Assembly: GCA_002704915.1 (NCBI GenBank)
Contig: PAIP01000047.1
Coordinates: forward strand, 1-63,959
Length of the DNA: 63,959 nt
Source: Parvularcula sp.
GTDB taxonomy: Bacteria; Pseudomonadota; Alphaproteobacteria; Caulobacterales; Parvularculaceae
Direction of reading: 5' to 3'
Under the pieces are notes generated by a model that saw nothing but the letters and a program-made list of their open reading frames with translations, did not search any database and had not been told where the DNA came from. The translations under genes and the position numbers were made by a program. This document shows positions 55,251 to 63,959 of this stretch, in pieces (position 1 is the first letter of the stretch; every line of letters begins with the position of its first letter).

Positions 55251-55324
55251 GCGGGTATAGCTCAGTGGTAGAGCCGCAGCCTTCCAAGCTGAAGATGCGG
55301 GTTCGATTCCCGCTACCCGCTCCA
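55251..55324 (+). tRNA. tRNA-Gly (anticodon TCC)
   Basis: Acceptor arms GCGGGTA and TACCCGC pair fully; D arm GCTC/GAGC, anticodon loop CTTCCAA (anticodon TCC at 55283-55285) and T arm GCGGG-TTCGATT-CCCGC are intact, and CCA is encoded at 55322-55324. An integrase gene lies 150 bases downstream, so the 3' end of this tRNA is the likely attachment site. Confidence 0.97.
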
Positions 55325-55474
55325 AAACACCCTTCCAAGAAGACCTAAGACGACCGGGGAGGGCCGCTTAACCCACGGAAATTAAAAGGCTTTTCTTTCG
55401 ATTCAAAACGAGAGAGGATTCAGGCGACCGATAGCAACCGAACCGTGAAAGGCGCGTTTAGGCGCACGGAGCCA

Positions 55475-56662
55475 ATGCCAAGAGTCGTCCACAATCAACT
55501 TAGCGTCGCCAAAATTCGAGCACTGAAAAATCCGGGCAGGCACGTCGATGGAAACGGGCTTTATCTGCGCGTTGATATGACGGGTAACAAGGCTTGGTTC
55601 TTACGCGCGACAATCGCCCATCGTCGGAGGGAATTGCGCCTTGGGTATTGGCCAGAAGTTTCTCTTGGTGATGCCCGTCGGGAGCGAGATTCTATCCTTC
55701 ATCGGGTGAAGATGGGCGAAAACCCATTTGCCGAAGCTGAGGCGAAGAAAGAAGCCGTCAAGCAAACCGCAACAACCTTGGAAGAATACACGCGTACACA
55801 TTTCGAGCGGATCAAAAATCGTATCTCTACAGAGAAGGATCGCAAGGCATGGCTTTCCTCAATGGAGAGGTACGTTTTTGCGAAGATCGGTAAACGGCCA
55901 CTGGTTGAGATTAACACTGATGACATTGTGAAAGTCCTTGAGCCGATTTGGACAAAGAAGGCCTACACGGCCAATGATTTGAAACAACGCTTGTCGGGCG
56001 TCTTCAGGTCGGCAATGGCTGTCGGGAAGCATCCCGGACCCAACCCAACTGAAACAGTGTTGGATGCACTTGGCTCAAACGCACATAGGAAGAAGCACCG
56101 GCCCGCGCTTCCTTGGAAAGACGTACCCTCATTCTACAAAGGGCTGGGCGACCTTCCGATGGATGACATTTCTCGTTCTGGGTTCCGGTTTATGATTTTG
56201 ACGGCTGCTCGGCCGGGAGAAGTGCGGAACGCCGAATGGTCAGAAATAAACTGGAAGGAACGTCTCTGGGAAATTCCGGCTGAGAAAATGAAAATGCGCC
56301 GTCCGCATCGTGTCCCATTGTCTCAACAGGCGCTCGCGCTTTTGCGTGAGGTGAAGAAGACGTCTGGTCGCGGAAACCTCATCTTCCCGAGTCCACGTGG
56401 TGACAAACCATACAGCGACATGGTTTTTACGAAGGCCATTGAGCGCTTAGATTTGAAAGGGCAGGTGACGGCGCACGGCTTCCGAAGCAGCTTCCGCGAC
56501 TGGGCCGCCGAGACGCGCAAGTTTGAACGCGACGCAATGGAGCGCGCGCTCGCGCATGAACCTAAGTCGGCGGTCGAAGCTGCATACTTCCGTACCGACT
56601 TACTCGACGCCCGACGTCCCATGATGGTTGATTGGGCAGCTTTCGTGACCAAGCGTCAGTGA
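55475..56662 (+). CDS. P4-type tyrosine integrase
   Basis: This 395-residue site-specific recombinase has an N-terminal DUF4102 arm-binding domain (about 1-95), a core-binding domain (about 105-190) and a catalytic domain. Catalytic Arg is in A-A-R-P-G-E-V-R, the H-x-x-R box is H-G-F-R-S-S-F-R-D-W and the nucleophile Tyr is in V-E-A-A-Y-F-R-T-D. ATG 55475 with CGGAG upstream is used; a GTG 10 codons earlier has no site. It inserts the element at the adjacent tRNA-Gly. Confidence 0.95.
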   Translation: MPRVVHNQLSVAKIRALKNPGRHVDGNGLYLRVDMTGNKAWFLRATIAHRRRELRLGYWPEVSLGDARRERDSILHRVKMGENPFAEAEAKKEAVKQTATTLEEYTRTHFERIKNRISTEKDRKAWLSSMERYVFAKIGKRPLVEINTDDIVKVLEPIWTKKAYTANDLKQRLSGVFRSAMAVGKHPGPNPTETVLDALGSNAHRKKHRPALPWKDVPSFYKGLGDLPMDDISRSGFRFMILTAARPGEVRNAEWSEINWKERLWEIPAEKMKMRRPHRVPLSQQALALLREVKKTSGRGNLIFPSPRGDKPYSDMVFTKAIERLDLKGQVTAHGFRSSFRDWAAETRKFERDAMERALAHEPKSAVEAAYFRTDLLDARRPMMVDWAAFVTKRQ

Positions 56663-56905
56663 ACTGATGTACAATTATGAAGTTTCTTGGGCCGGAGGGT
56701 TTCCAAGGCAACCGAAAGAAGCTTTAATGACTCCAGAAAGAGTGCTTTAACGCTGTTCGGGGCCTCTGCTAATACAGCAAGCGACCGGCGACGCGGAAAT
56801 AAAACACAGGTCTTGGGCAGTCAGACCTACCAAAAAAGGCCCAGCACGATCTTCAAAAAACTTAACCCAGTTGGCCCTGAAAAATGGGAACAGGAGATCT
56901 GTGCC

Positions 56906-57196
56906 ATGACTACTCAACAAATGCTTATCGACGGTCGCCCAATTCACGGCGATGACCTATTGACCAAACAGGAAGTGCTACGGTTTCTAAGCATTTCTAG
57001 CACGACCCTATATTCCGGAATCGCGAATGGGATTTATCCTAAACCGGTCAAGGTGGGTCTACGCCGGTCCGCTTGGCGCGGCTGCGATATCATCAAACTC
57101 AAGCAGATTATTTTCAGCGGTAAGGCGCTTGAAAAGAACTGCTGGGTTGATGCGCAAACAAGCGACTTGAAACCCGCCGAACCTTCGGCTGCCTGA
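56906..57196 (+). CDS. AlpA-family excisionase/regulator
   Basis: This 96-residue protein has the AlpA helix-turn-helix: L-L-T-K-Q-E-V-L-R-F-L-S-I-S-S-T-T-L-Y, then Y-P-K-P-V-K-V-G-L-R-R-S-A-W-R. AlpA proteins bind near the attachment site and switch on excision or integrase expression. ATG 56906 with AGGAG upstream is chosen; the frame 73 codons longer is open but lacks a ribosome site. The 56663-56905 gap otherwise holds no gene. Confidence 0.9.
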   Translation: MTTQQMLIDGRPIHGDDLLTKQEVLRFLSISSTTLYSGIANGIYPKPVKVGLRRSAWRGCDIIKLKQIIFSGKALEKNCWVDAQTSDLKPAEPSAA

Positions 57197-57197
57197 A

Positions 57198-57232
57198 CAA
57201 AAAACCCACCCCGGCGAGGCGCTGGGATGGGT
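57198..57232 (-). terminator. Hairpin after alpA with T-run on the minus strand
   Basis: AACCCACCC and GGGATGGGTT are near-perfect arms around a G/C-rich loop; on the minus strand the stem is followed by a T-run, as in a rho-independent terminator. No minus-strand gene is seen to need it, so it may be bidirectional or a relic. The rest of 57197-57387 carries no gene. Confidence 0.4.
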
Positions 57233-57387
57233 TGAAGGGGCAGCAACTGACGGGTTGCGCTGGAACAGCCAAAATGAGGTCGTGTGCCGACTGTTCTGGT
57301 CCTCCTTTAAGCCGTTTTTGCCCCTCTTCGCTACAAAAAATCCCCATACGGATCGGTGCTGTTACGCGCCGCATAAAGGATTCCGAA

Positions 57388-59811
57388 ATGACAAAAGCCG
57401 CAACTGACACAAATGTAAACGCCAATCCGGGCGAAGAGTCGAAGGTCCATTCTGGACGCTCAATAGACGACAAAAAGAAAATAAAAGGCATCGACGAATT
57501 ATCATCTGTCAAAAAATATTTATCTCGCATTGGTGCGGAGGCTCGTGGCCTAAAAAGCGCAGTCGTAACAGAAACGGTTGGTAACAAATACTGGCGCGAA
57601 GTTGCCACAATCAAGTTTGATGAGAACGGTGAGATCGGATGTGACAAAAACGGAAAGAGGAAGAAGAATTCAGTCGTAAAAATCTATTCGGGTGAGGGTG
57701 GTGAATCAGACTTTGAGCCGACACAAGATGAAGAAGCTGCTATTCACGAGGAACTGAAGCAGGTTGATTGGCCAACACTCCTGCCAGTCAAGAACATAAG
57801 CAATCCTCCGCCAGCAGTGAAAAAAGCAGGCGAAGGGAATGTTTTCGAGTTCCGCGATGAAAACGGCATGATAACCATGCTCCAAGTGCGCATGGAACAA
57901 GATGCGCCGGACGGCGGCAGGGAAAAGGTCTACATCCCATACACCTACTGGTCGGACAATGAATGGCGCTGCGCGGAGCCTGATGGTCCTCTGCCGCTGT
58001 TCAATGCGCACAAGCTCAAGAATGCTGCCCTGATTTACGTTCATGAAGGCGCGCGCACGGCGGACGTCATGCAGAAGATGGTTGAAGCCATGACGCGTCA
58101 GGACCGAGAGGCGTTGGGCGCGCACCCTTGGAATAAACAGATGGCTGCGGGTGTTCATGTCGGATGGATCGGCGGCGCAATGAATGCGCACCGCACCGAC
58201 TGGTCGCCCATCAATCGCTCATCGGCGCAGAAAGTGATCATTGTAGCAGACAATGATGACCCGGGTCGGCAGGCACCCGGAACAATCGCGGAATTGATAC
58301 GTAAACCTGCGTTAATGTTGCAGCCGACTGCTTCATTCCCTCAGGGTTGGGATATGGCTGATCCTTGGCCAGAAACGATGTTTGCGCCAGCGCTATCTGG
58401 AAATGAAGGAGAGTACGTTTATGTCGGGCCAGCACTGGAGCAAATGCTTGTTCCCATCACCTGGGCTACCGACCGCGTGCAAGGTGCTTCAGGGAGGCCA
58501 GCCTATCGTCTTCGCCAGCATTATAAAAACTCTGTCGTACATATAACAGCTTCCGATCATTTCATAAGCGAAGAACAACCGGACAAGATCATGTCGCGCG
58601 GTGAATTCGACAGAGAGATGGCTGCGCGATCACACACGTCGAATTTGTCCAAGATTGTCGAGAGAGAGTTCAACGGGCGCACCTGCTCGATTGCTTATGA
58701 GCCGGGGCGGCCAACCGGCATTATTGAGCAGGACGGGGGCATGGCGATGAATACCTTTCGCGGCACCTCAATCAAGCCACAACAGGGCGATGTCCAGCCA
58801 TTCCTCGAATACATGGCCTACATGTTCCCGAACGAGGCTGAATATGAAGAAGTGCTTCGCTGGTGTGCAACGCTGATAGGCCGCCCGCATATTCGAATGG
58901 CGTATGCGCTGCTTCTAATTTCGAAAACGCAAGGCATAGGCAAGACGACGCTCGCTGAACAAATTTTGCGCCCGTTGGTCGGACCGCATAACTGCTCAGT
59001 CGTGACCGATACGCAACTAGTGGACAGTCAGTTCAATGCATGGCTTGGGAGCAAGCGACTTATAATCGTGAATGAGATTTACTCCGGGCAGGGTTGGAAA
59101 GCCTATCACAAAAGCAAGACCATCATCACGGATGAATTCATTGAGGTGAACCAAAAGCACGAAAAGCCATACACGGTTAGAAACTACGCCCACGTATTTG
59201 CTTGTTCGAATTCAGATCGCGCCATTCGTATGGCGGAAGAAGACCGGCGTTGGTTTATTCCAACTGTTGCGGAAAGCAAATGGCCTCGCGAGAAATTTTC
59301 AAAGCTACGAAAATTTCTAGAGCGAGGCGGTTTAGGCCACATATTGCATTGGGCGCAGAATTTTGAATCGTTGTCTGACTTGCAATACGTTGCGCCCGGT
59401 GCGTCTGCGCCTATGACCGAAAGAAAGCAGCGGATGATCGAGGAAAGTCGCTCGCCGATGGTTAACTTGGCGGTTGAGTTGGCTGAAGCTGTTTCCGACC
59501 CTGAGGGAGAATTTGCACATCAGCCGGTCGCCTTAGTCGGTGCGCACATTATGGATTGGCTAAAGAACCACCCTGAGAACGACGCTAAAGGACGCGGCAC
59601 CGTTCGGAATGACGAAGTATCAATTGCGATGGCGAGTGTAGGGATGGGGCGTTTCGGCGATAGGCCCAAATGGGAAAAGCGGCGAACTTTCATTCTGATG
59701 AATCCGGCGCTCGCTGAAAAGGTATCCTGTGCGCAGACCACTACAGAGCAACGGAAAATCATGGAGGAATTTGTCCGGGCACCTCATGAAATTCTGCCTA
59801 ACCCGCTTTGA
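57388..59811 (+). CDS. Primase-helicase with TOPRIM-like and DUF5906 domains
   Basis: This 807-residue replication protein has an N-terminal region, a TOPRIM-like domain (Glu in Y-V-H-E-G-A near residue 217; D-x-D in V-A-D-N-D-D-P-G-R near 287), and a C-terminal superfamily 3-like helicase of the DUF5906 group: Walker A T-Q-G-I-G-K-T-T near residue 515, Walker B L-I-I-V-N-E near 558. This is the P4 alpha/phage-plasmid primase layout; it allows autonomous replication of the element. ATG 57388 with AAGGATT upstream is used; the earlier open frame lacks conservation. Confidence 0.9.
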   Translation: MTKAATDTNVNANPGEESKVHSGRSIDDKKKIKGIDELSSVKKYLSRIGAEARGLKSAVVTETVGNKYWREVATIKFDENGEIGCDKNGKRKKNSVVKIYSGEGGESDFEPTQDEEAAIHEELKQVDWPTLLPVKNISNPPPAVKKAGEGNVFEFRDENGMITMLQVRMEQDAPDGGREKVYIPYTYWSDNEWRCAEPDGPLPLFNAHKLKNAALIYVHEGARTADVMQKMVEAMTRQDREALGAHPWNKQMAAGVHVGWIGGAMNAHRTDWSPINRSSAQKVIIVADNDDPGRQAPGTIAELIRKPALMLQPTASFPQGWDMADPWPETMFAPALSGNEGEYVYVGPALEQMLVPITWATDRVQGASGRPAYRLRQHYKNSVVHITASDHFISEEQPDKIMSRGEFDREMAARSHTSNLSKIVEREFNGRTCSIAYEPGRPTGIIEQDGGMAMNTFRGTSIKPQQGDVQPFLEYMAYMFPNEAEYEEVLRWCATLIGRPHIRMAYALLLISKTQGIGKTTLAEQILRPLVGPHNCSVVTDTQLVDSQFNAWLGSKRLIIVNEIYSGQGWKAYHKSKTIITDEFIEVNQKHEKPYTVRNYAHVFACSNSDRAIRMAEEDRRWFIPTVAESKWPREKFSKLRKFLERGGLGHILHWAQNFESLSDLQYVAPGASAPMTERKQRMIEESRSPMVNLAVELAEAVSDPEGEFAHQPVALVGAHIMDWLKNHPENDAKGRGTVRNDEVSIAMASVGMGRFGDRPKWEKRRTFILMNPALAEKVSCAQTTTEQRKIMEEFVRAPHEILPNPL

Positions 59812-60329: not shown

Positions 60330-60377
60330 CAGTGCAATGACCAGTTCACTCTAAGCAAAGGACACATTGCAGTGAAC
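60330..60377 (+). promoter_or_regulatory. Competing hairpins over the capsid gene start
   Basis: TGCAATG (60333-60339) can pair with CATTGCA (60365-60371), and GTTCACT (60344-60350) with AGTGAAC (60371-60377), which includes the GTG start codon. The two pairings cross, so they are alternatives or a pseudoknot; the AAAGGA ribosome site lies in the loop of both. This could control capsid translation. Confidence 0.35.
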
Positions 60378-61361
60378 CCAGCATTCACCAATATCGGCAA
60401 GAGCGTTCAAGCTATCGCTCGCGCCAAGATGTCCGACGGCGACCATTCCCCGTTCGACATTATCTCTCAGGACTTCAACTACAATGCCGAGGTCAGCGCC
60501 ATTACGCGCGCCATCACCAAGGCACCTGTCACGCCGGTGAACAATGACAATTATGGCGATGTCACGAGCATGGGGCGTGACCGCTTCGTCAGTGCTATCG
60601 TTGAACCGAGCATCATTGGCCGCATGAATGGCGTCGCCCGCGTACCGATGAACACGCGCGTCAACGCCATGACCACAGCCCCAGCGGCAGACTTTGTGGG
60701 TCAAGGCGCACCCATGCCAGCTTCGGCTCCCAGTGGTGATGGCTTCACGCTCGTCCCTCTCAAAATTGCTGGCTTGATCGCGTTCACTGAGGAGTTAGTC
60801 AATTCCTCGGACGAAGCCGCTGCGAATTTCATTGGCACGCAACTCGCTGGCGCTGCGCGCAGAGCGCTCGACATTGCTGTGTTTGATCCAGCCAACGCGG
60901 GCACGGCGGACGTAAAGCCCGCATCGATCACAAACGGCCTGACGGCGGTGACTGGCACAGCGAACGCGAAAAACGATATTCGCTCTCTGATAGCTGGTTA
61001 CGAAGGCGACATTGAAACAGCCTCCTTCATCGCGCGTCCAGAAACGCTGGCCTATCTCGCTTCAGAAGGTTTCGACGCATCAGCAAACGACATTGCAGGC
61101 ATCCCGGCTTTTGCCTCCCGCGCAATCCCAACGACTGGCGGTCGGCATGTGGCGCTTGTTGATGGTGCTGGTTTGGCCTTTGCCGCGAACGACGCACGCG
61201 TCCGCGTCTCGCTCGATACTGCGATCGCGCCGAGCGATGACCCGGAAAACGAAACTGACATGGTGAGCATGTTCCAAGACGGTTCGGTAGCCGTGGCCGT
61301 CAGTTGCGTTCAAACTCCGTCGCCATTCTTTCAGGAGCCACTTGGTAATGAACACCAGTAG
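60372..61361 (+). CDS. Major capsid protein, HK97 fold
   Basis: This 329-residue protein has the phage capsid pattern: N-terminal helix, a long S-x-x-x-R-x-x-x strand region (V-E-P-S-I-I-G-R-M-N-G-V-A-R-V-P), G-Q-G-A-P-M-P with spine residues, L-K-I-A-G-L-I-A-F-T-E-E-L-V-N-S-S, A-A-R-R-A-L-D-I-A-V-F, and a C-terminal A-domain strand set. No N-terminal delta scaffold domain is apparent. GTG 60372 with AAAGGA upstream. It is the only virion structural gene seen in the element. Confidence 0.85.
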   Translation: MNPAFTNIGKSVQAIARAKMSDGDHSPFDIISQDFNYNAEVSAITRAITKAPVTPVNNDNYGDVTSMGRDRFVSAIVEPSIIGRMNGVARVPMNTRVNAMTTAPAADFVGQGAPMPASAPSGDGFTLVPLKIAGLIAFTEELVNSSDEAAANFIGTQLAGAARRALDIAVFDPANAGTADVKPASITNGLTAVTGTANAKNDIRSLIAGYEGDIETASFIARPETLAYLASEGFDASANDIAGIPAFASRAIPTTGGRHVALVDGAGLAFAANDARVRVSLDTAIAPSDDPENETDMVSMFQDGSVAVAVSCVQTPSPFFQEPLGNEHQ

Positions 61362-62356: not shown

Positions 62357-63196
62357 ATGAATGTAGTAAAAACATATTGGTTTCACTTTGTTCGGTCCAT
62401 TTTCTTTGCCATGGGCCTAATTTGGCTTCCGCTAGAATCTTTTGAGGGATTGTCAAATCAGGAAGCGTTGCTCCCTTATTGGGTCTTCCTAATATTATCA
62501 GTTGGTGTGGGGATTGTCGCGTTCCTCATAGATGGTTTTTTTTGGACTGGTTATCTCAAGTCCGAAATAACAATCAAAAGTAATAGCTTTGACACCGGTG
62601 TTTGTGTCCGGTTTGGCGATTTGTTTGAGCAAGATGGCTGGAAGGCCATCGCGGCTAACGATTTCTTCGATTACATTGTCGATGACGATTTGGTTTCTTC
62701 GCGAAGTTTACACGGTCAAGCAATCTCAAGATTTTGGGATAAAAATCCCGAAGGCTGGCATGATCAAATTGCGCGCTCGTTGGAAAATGACGACTTCAAA
62801 AAAGAGCAAAGGGATAAAGGAAATAAAAAACGGTACGACCTTGGTACTACTGCTGTTGCAAGGAATCTCAACCAACAATTTCTATTTGTCGCATTGGGGA
62901 AGACAAATATTGACAACAACGAAGCTGGCGCCACGTCTGAAAGCGTAATTTGTGCTGTTCGTTGCATGTTAGCGAAGGCGCGATCCGTTTGCGCCAACGA
63001 GCCGCTAAATATTCCTTTGATGGGATCAGGGTTGGCGCGAGTTGGGATAAAGAATGCACTTCTTGTCGATCTGATCCTGATAGCCATATTTGAAGAAACT
63101 AAAAAGGCCAAAATAACTGACAAGATTTCGATAATTCTGCCTAGAGACAAGCGGCTAGAAATCAATCTGGGCTCGGTAAAAAGAGATTGGAGCTAA
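62357..63196 (+). CDS. thsA: Type II Thoeris effector ThsA (TM plus macro domain)
   Basis: This 279-residue protein has two transmembrane helices (about 8-25 and 40-62) followed by a macro-like domain (about 70-275) with V-R-F-G-D-L-F, A-N-D-F-F-D, S-L-H-G and the glycine loop I-P-L-M-G-S-G-L-A-R-V-G. This is the layout of the Thoeris ThsA variant with DUF6430 macro domain, which binds the nucleotide signal made by the TIR protein and then acts in the membrane, causing abortive infection. G+C is much lower than in the chromosome. The next gene starts one base after its stop. Confidence 0.88.
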   Translation: MNVVKTYWFHFVRSIFFAMGLIWLPLESFEGLSNQEALLPYWVFLILSVGVGIVAFLIDGFFWTGYLKSEITIKSNSFDTGVCVRFGDLFEQDGWKAIAANDFFDYIVDDDLVSSRSLHGQAISRFWDKNPEGWHDQIARSLENDDFKKEQRDKGNKKRYDLGTTAVARNLNQQFLFVALGKTNIDNNEAGATSESVICAVRCMLAKARSVCANEPLNIPLMGSGLARVGIKNALLVDLILIAIFEETKKAKITDKISIILPRDKRLEINLGSVKRDWS

Positions 63197-63197
63197 C

Positions 63198-63758
63198 ATG
63201 GCTTACAGAAGCGGGACTTACATTGCGTTCGATGGGCTTGGGGAAGTCGAACCTACTAAGTCCGATTTTAAGTATTACGCTACAATCCGGGCTTGGACAG
63301 AGCACAAGGACATTGATTTCAAGTTTGTGAACAGCCACGAAAAGACCGCTGCGGTTCGCGATACAAGTCTGAAGGCTACATTGCAGGCTAGAATTCGGGA
63401 ACGTCTGGCGAATTCCAAAAATGTTGTTGTCATCTTGAGTGATCAGACGCGTAAGTCTGGTAGTATGTTGTCTTATGAAATTGAACAGGCTGTCGACAAA
63501 AATGATTTGCCACTAATTTGCGCATACACGGGTTATTCGTCAATTTTAAATCCAAGCGACGCGCTGTTACGGATGCGTTGGCCTTTGGCCCTTGAGGCAC
63601 GAATTGACAACAACACTGCAAAAGCGATCCACATTCCATTTCGCAAGGACCCGATTCTGGATGCAATTAGTCAGTTTACAGTACATACTGGAGCGCTAAA
63701 TATTCCACTTCAGTTCTATAACGAGGCGACGCATCGTATGTGGGGGCTCATCAGCTGA
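63198..63758 (+). CDS. thsB: Thoeris TIR-like protein ThsB
   Basis: This 186-residue protein has the DUF1863/MTH538 TIR-like fold: T-Y-I-A-F-D-G at the first strand, K-D-I-D-F-K-F-V-N-S-H-E-K, V-V-V-I-L-S-D-Q-T-R-K-S, and S-Y-E-I-E-Q-A with E94/E96 as candidate catalytic Glu. ThsB proteins recognise phage and turn NAD into a cyclic or histidine-linked ADP-ribose signal. Together with the TM-macro gene it makes a complete two-gene type II Thoeris system. The downstream exonuclease gene starts 3 bases later. Confidence 0.88.
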   Translation: MAYRSGTYIAFDGLGEVEPTKSDFKYYATIRAWTEHKDIDFKFVNSHEKTAAVRDTSLKATLQARIRERLANSKNVVVILSDQTRKSGSMLSYEIEQAVDKNDLPLICAYTGYSSILNPSDALLRMRWPLALEARIDNNTAKAIHIPFRKDPILDAISQFTVHTGALNIPLQFYNEATHRMWGLIS

Positions 63759-63761
63759 ATT

Positions 63762-63959
63762 ATGGAATTTGCTGCAATTGATGTTGAAACGGCAAACGCA
63801 AATATGGCGTCAATTTGCCAAATTGGCGTTGCTCGGTTTTCAAATGGTCAAATTGTCGATGAGTGGGAAACGCTCGTTGATCCGCAATCCTATTTCGACA
63901 TGATGAACGTCAGCATCCACGGTATCGAGGAACAAGACGTTGCAGGAGCTCCGACATTC
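63762..63959 (+). CDS. DEDDh 3'-5' exonuclease (RNase T/DnaQ-like), truncated by window end
   Basis: Sixty-six residues are visible. They carry exonuclease motif I, A-A-I-D-V-E-T-A-N (D7 and E9 are the metal-binding acids), then I-C-Q-I-G-V-A-R-F, and N-V-S-I-H-G-I followed by A-P-T-F, as in stand-alone DEDDh exonucleases. The ATG is 3 bases after the thsB stop and composition matches the two genes before it, so it belongs to the same operon. It is not a known Thoeris part. The C-terminus and later motifs are outside the window. Confidence 0.85.
   Translation, partial: MEFAAIDVETANANMASICQIGVARFSNGQIVDEWETLVDPQSYFDMMNVSIHGIEEQDVAGAPTF

Follow-up and report, generated by a model that had tools for sequence, protein, structure and literature searches.

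The last three open reading frames of the window very probably hold a standard two-gene type II Thoeris system, a passenger that occupies the right end of a tRNA-Gly island of 9.4 kb, probably a phage satellite, and is followed by an independent exonuclease of DEDDh-BRCT architecture. The window is the whole stretch of DNA that was analysed, 63,959 bases, and corresponds to the entire contig C49, one of the 85 contigs that make up a 4.5-Mb assembly. All three frames lie on the plus strand, separated by 1 base and then by 3 bases, and the coordinates and domains that an earlier, sequence-only reading had given for them were reproduced. That reading also described a shared low G+C content. This holds for thsA (42.9%), thsB (46.2%) and the 198 bases of the exonuclease gene visible in the window (46.0%), compared with 59.5% for window positions 1-55250, but not for the remainder of the exonuclease gene, which was located on another contig of this assembly, C81 (56.8% over 660 bases); the other genes of the island range from 50.9 to 60.9%. 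We observed the gene content, the domains, the active-site residues, the repeat of the tRNA end and, in the loci examined, no linkage. The right end is more likely to hold two passengers that share a slot, and we infer that the exonuclease would be independent of its neighbours.

Table 1. Features of the tRNA-Gly island and its right-end passengers (window coordinates unless C81 is named)
Feature	Position	Strand	Size, basis or remark
tRNA-Gly (TCC)	55251-55324	+	ARAGORN
Proposed left attachment site (last 14 bases of tRNA-Gly)	55311-55324	+	Repeat on C81
Tyrosine integrase	55445-56662	+	PF00589, PF22022, PF13356
AlpA-like regulator/excisionase	56867-57196	+	PF05930 4.2e-5; PHROGs excisionase and transcriptional regulator 6.3e-5
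Primase-like protein (DUF5906)	57232-59811	+	PF19263 2.9e-23; PHROG DNA primase 1.6e-28
Major capsid protein	60372-61361	+	PF05065 2.2e-8; PHROG major head protein 2.7e-16
thsA (TM-macro effector, type II Thoeris)	62357-63196	+	279 aa; PF20016, PADLOC ThsA, PDB 8v6q
thsB (predicted TIR-like signal-making enzyme/sensor)	63198-63758	+	186 aa; PF08937, PADLOC ThsB, PDB 9uv0/8v6t
DEDDh-BRCT exonuclease, first 66 codons, open at contig end	63762-63959	+	PF00929; remainder on contig C81
Proposed right attachment repeat	C81, bases 772-785 counted from the contig end		109 bases past exonuclease stop

ThsA matched the Pfam family ThsA_Macro over residues 82-261 (6.7e-40), the PADLOC ThsA model (1.5e-47) and, among solved structures, the ThsA macro domain of PDB 8v6q (1.4e-18). 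Its N-terminus is hydrophobic: the mean over 19 residues peaks at 2.44 for residues 43-61, and residues 8-26 form a weaker segment (1.43); the protein thus combines the hydrophobic (membrane) segment or segments with the macro domain, as type II effectors do. ThsB matched ThsB_TIR in the Pfam scan (4.4e-17), PADLOC ThsB (1.4e-65) and the structures 9uv0 (1.4e-15), 8v6t (1.3e-12) and 3hyn. Residues Y8 and E94 of ThsB are invariant across 25 aligned rows and align with Y8 and E89 of 8v6t, which we take to be EcThsB2. According to the available text of PMC11204291, Y8 and E89 form the EcThsB2 active site, in a ThsB class specific for TM-macro effectors. The gene next to thsA therefore codes for a TIR-like protein with both the active-site glutamate and the TM-macro-type tyrosine.

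The same text has D83, N114, S217, G218, T220, H259 and K262 among the EcThsA residues that touch ADPR. Of these seven, four are retained here (D83, S217, G218 and K262, as D88, S224, G225 and K265) and three are replaced (N114 by H119, T220 by A227, H259 by P262). Of 28 further ThsA rows, 13 have histidine at the N114 position, including all 11 that score best against ours; these 11 carry A, G or S at the T220 position and 10 of them lack the H259 histidine. Because changes of this kind recur in the 11 best-scoring rows, the replacements are probably, as far as the alignment can tell, the mark of a subgroup and not a defect of one gene, and this subgroup may read a different ADPR-type signal. 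The gene order in all 11 is thsA then thsB. The earlier reading had assigned the first two genes to type II Thoeris; the Pfam, PADLOC and PDB matches, together with the active-site residues, bear this out, and judged by its sequence the pair is a real, ordinary type II Thoeris system.

The third frame runs off the end of the contig. Its window piece matched RNase_T (5.1e-5), and a full-length relative located the continuation, with residues 73-285 falling at C81 29262-29900 on the minus strand. C81 is 29,905 bases long; read from its end, it opens with 219 in-frame codons and then a stop, which extends the gene to its end, and it codes for a C-terminal BRCT domain (2.7e-6). The DEDDh motif consists of DxE, D and H....D. 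With the two pieces analysed separately and never joined, D7 and E9 were found in the window piece, and D89 and H144/D149 on C81; all five residues are invariant in 12 aligned relatives. The assignment of the third gene to the DEDDh exonucleases, made earlier from the first residues, stands on the PF00929 match and on motif residues in both pieces. A 289-residue relative (genome G254, locus L090) shares 83% identity with the window piece over residues 1-66, where start and frame fit, and 76% with the C81 piece over residues 72-289. Only residues 67-71 are left unmatched, and about 10 bases lie between C49 and C81. The whole protein would therefore be about 289 residues long, carry the DEDDh residues and end in a BRCT domain.

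The 14 bases that end tRNA-Gly have one copy in the window, one on C81 and no further copy on either contig. By itself this repeat is not significant (E 4.9 in a genome-wide BLAST); it carries weight because of its place, at the exact tRNA end and again just past the last gene. The span between the two copies is 9,434 bases plus the approximately 10 missing ones and also holds small genes. Since the tRNA-Gly end recurs past the exonuclease stop, thsA, thsB and the exonuclease gene close the 9.4-kb island. It has the integrase, the attachment repeats at a tRNA, a replication gene of its own and the small size of phage satellites, and is probably one, which would presumably need a helper phage. 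Among the seven island proteins scanned against Pfam and PHROGs, none matched a terminase, portal or tail family. The capsid protein is presumably of HK97 type, as PF05065 implies, and of 61 other genomes of the family, 4 have a relative of it with 30-35% identity (E up to 1e-3). A search for an empty attachment site, by way of the flanking gene at E <=1e-40, found that gene in 1 of 28 genomes of the genus, our own, and hence no empty site.

We considered whether the C81 piece might be something other than the continuation, the exonuclease being truncated or different past the contig end, and judge this to be extremely improbable. The two contig ends share no exact overlap above 5 bases, with some 10 bases missing, the G+C content changes from 46.0 to 56.8% across the junction and an empty attachment site could not be shown in relatives. 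Against this, both pieces fit one and the same 289-residue relative, C81 ends exactly where the short unmatched stretch falls, and the repeat of the tRNA end follows the exonuclease stop on C81 by 109 bases. The recurrence of this repeat just past the exonuclease also supports the C49-C81 junction.

The sequence-only reading had gone further and proposed the exonuclease as a possible third Thoeris component, which might degrade phage nucleic acid, trim RNA or limit the signal. The 1- and 3-base spacing on one strand within one island slot speaks for such a three-gene variant, in which the exonuclease would work with ThsA and ThsB by degrading phage DNA or RNA or by limiting the signal. The gap between thsB and the exonuclease gene is only 3 bases, so that co-transcription and translational coupling of the two are likely; this, and the lack of a clear ribosome site directly upstream of the exonuclease ATG, count against the reading as two passengers. 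Promoter and terminator scans were given no weight in the conclusions: promoters numbered 4 in the window part (2.4, sd 1.3, in shuffles) and 0 on C81 (0.6, sd 0.8), and terminators 5 (2.6, sd 1.7) and 4 (1.2, sd 1.3), respectively. One promoter-like match, at 63675-63704, lies within thsB shortly upstream of the exonuclease gene.

The proposal named absence of the exonuclease beside most related thsAB pairs as the observation that would speak against it, and this is what was found. Among the 28 other loci that hold both thsA and thsB, none had the exonuclease within the stretches fetched. A ThsA or ThsB match was present in 38 loci besides the nine on our own contig, which were left out; setting aside the 10 in which just one of the proteins was detected (L017, L041, L043 and L049-L055) gives the 28. 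They comprise all 8 loci on genome contigs, 14 of the 16 on viral contigs, the 3 plasmid records that were opened of 58 matching ones and 3 further genome loci. The flank beyond the pair was 0-6 kb (129 bases in L035, 0 bases in L046). The count is without the neighbourhoods of the 18 contigs represented by the ThsB cluster at 90% identity, and the triplet could thus be kept in this lineage. The order thsA then thsB was seen in 15 of the 28 pairs. In 6 of 24 other loci (L004, L005, L006, L034, L039 and L042) an unrelated same-strand frame of at least 80 codons starts no more than 35 bases from the pair: a DNA methylase gene in L005 (at -1 base) and L006 (9 bases), and a gene for an AlbA_2-domain protein in L004 (32 bases). 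The next frame is more distant or on the opposite strand in the other 18. Tight spacing next to thsAB is therefore not rare and says little about a shared function.

The converse search started from the exonuclease. No ThsA or ThsB of this class was detected near it in the 33 loci other than our own, which correspond to 31 distinct places (L096 and L097 duplicate L056 and L058), nor in 79 viral-contig loci, one of which (L110) is the same contig as L018; our own C81 piece, taken as a 34th locus, also gave no match to either profile. The 33 loci consist of 14 found with the full-length relative, 6 from plasmids (records H31, H32, H33 and H39 opened of 63, and H62 and H65 of 9), 4 from phages (of 30 records), 1 from a viral contig and 8 longer stretches, with flanks of approximately 1.5-10 kb, less at contig ends. 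The weaker rows (L064-L070, and those of the 79 below about 35% identity) may be other DEDDh proteins. The closest full-length relative, L090, had no ThsA or ThsB match in its 18-kb stretch. The ThsB profile represents our own class and misses distant family members such as the one in L019, where the exonuclease gene is followed, after two other genes and 2.9 kb downstream, by one for a ThsB-family TIR protein (PF08937, 1.7e-24), and where ThsA gave no match. A wider query set, run on all 113 exonuclease loci, returned only this protein and a weak 97-residue frame in L159 (E 0.0038). Accordingly, there is no thsAB-exonuclease linkage in the loci examined.

On these grounds we consider the three-gene variant very unlikely. 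The distant ThsB-family protein of L019 speaks in its favour; the counts of 0/28, 0/33 and 0/79 speak against it, as do the different G+C content of the larger part of the exonuclease gene and the occurrence of an exonuclease 76-83% identical to ours in L090, with neither Thoeris protein. In the literature search for Thoeris and exonuclease, neither term occurred in any title or abstract found, and such a variant would therefore probably be new. Likewise given a very low probability is a lineage-restricted form, in which ThsA, ThsB and the DEDDh-BRCT exonuclease would be one co-expressed unit in this satellite lineage, the exonuclease clearing phage DNA after the membrane defence triggers or trimming the nucleotide signal.

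ThsB was matched in only our own genome among 28 of the genus; the ThsA family was found in 3 of 385 genomes of the class and the ThsB profile in 9 of 398 of the phylum, our own included in both. Phage records yielded no ThsB and plasmid records 58 matches. Viral contigs gave no relatives when searched with single thsA and thsB sequences, and 16 loci when searched with alignment A1. Two thsB genes flank one thsA in L036 and L037, and the viral contig L038 carries two ThsA-like genes, ThsB and a further TIR protein (PF13676). The pairs of L004, L005, L006 and L034 adjoin or lie near DNA methylase genes (PF01555), which places Thoeris in or beside restriction-modification loci there.

The DEDDh-BRCT exonuclease family recurs in phages, satellites and plasmids (for example L018, L093, L098-L103 and L104-L182), sometimes near an integrase. 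In Streptococcus satellite phage Javan542 and in phage IPP44, relatives adjoin or lie near an integrase; another adjoins a resolvase near an integrase in L093, and one lies inside a 15-kb record of Pasteurella phage Pmp8. The 79 viral contigs carry relatives at 27-62% identity, and with four integrases as queries, an integrase-like frame was detected in at least 17 of these 79 loci. Some relatives stand beside restriction-modification genes and others among ordinary genes on plasmids and chromosomes. On a Desulforapulum plasmid (L019:4221-8480), a span of 4.3 kb holds the genes for an exonuclease relative and for the distant ThsB-family TIR protein, together with one predicted to confer lincosamide resistance. 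A limited literature search found no demonstrated function for the family.

What the exonuclease does for the island was weighed in two ways. It might be a housekeeping or replication gene, serving repair or satellite replication and not defence, a reading we hold tentatively, at somewhat below an even chance. Among solved structures, the nearest to it in sequence are PolC, DinG, ExoX and epsilon-type exonucleases; its BRCT part is similar to the BRCT domains of RFC1 and DNA ligase, and the relatives among ordinary plasmid and chromosome genes point the same way; its place with the passenger genes at the island end, away from the primase, does not. Alternatively, it could be a defence module in its own right, made up of this one gene and placed next to Thoeris in a slot that the satellite uses for defence; we rate this as only slightly less likely. 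The window fragment matches the PADLOC candidate PDC-S48 (4.4e-17), yet only over the DEDDh part of a 512-position model, and at E up to 1 the same search matches in 12 of 14 control genomes. In our own genome the profile detected, besides the window piece, a protein of DEDDh type on C64 and, weakly, a place on C71 (E 0.54), and missed C81. The neighbouring restriction-modification genes and the phage and satellite integrases of some relatives agree with a defence role, and so do the slots of 1-5 kb with anti-phage systems that the available part of PMC9122126 describes in satellites and prophages.

Returning to the preferred arrangement, a standard Thoeris pair and an independent exonuclease, the two passengers would act as follows. 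By analogy with the relatives characterised in PMC11204291, as far as its available text goes, and in work cited there, ThsB would sense infection and make an ADP-ribose-type signal from NAD+; the Bacillus amyloliquefaciens relative is reported there to make histidine-ADPR. The signal would cause the macro domains of ThsA to oligomerise and its membrane segments to cluster, which would probably damage the membrane, and the cell would die before the phage multiplies, as in abortive infection. For the exonuclease, the predicted activity is 3'-5' degradation of nucleic acid, independent of Thoeris, and DNA ends may be what its BRCT domain binds; it would serve the island in replication, repair or the island's own defence.

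Compared with the type II Thoeris systems of E. coli (PMC11204291, in the portion available; PDB 8v6q and 8v6t) and B. amyloliquefaciens Y2, the pair described here has the same two proteins, the same adjacency and the same Tyr/Glu active site in ThsB. Four ADPR-cleft residues are those of EcThsA (D83, S217, G218 and K262), whereas H119, A227 and P262 stand in place of its N114, T220 and H259, and the order thsA then thsB is different, although shared with the 15 other pairs noted above. The exonuclease has the RNase_T-then-BRCT architecture and the approximately 290 residues of other DnaQ-like proteins, such as those of Desulforapulum plasmid pHRM2a and Javan542, which are annotated as 'exonuclease domain-containing protein'; unlike them, ours alone lies directly beside thsAB among the loci examined. 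For the island as a whole, the comparison is with P4-like satellites, for which the available part of PMC9122126 describes anti-phage slots. These satellites share its small size, integrase at a tRNA, AlpA, primase and passenger defence genes; our island differs in carrying a capsid gene and has no terminase, portal or tail family among its seven scanned proteins. The analysis shows that genes set 1 to 3 bases apart in the passenger slot of a mobile element are only a weak indication of a functional operon. It also places type II Thoeris in a capsid-bearing island for which both borders are proposed, and draws attention to a recurring DEDDh-BRCT exonuclease family of phages, satellites and plasmids.
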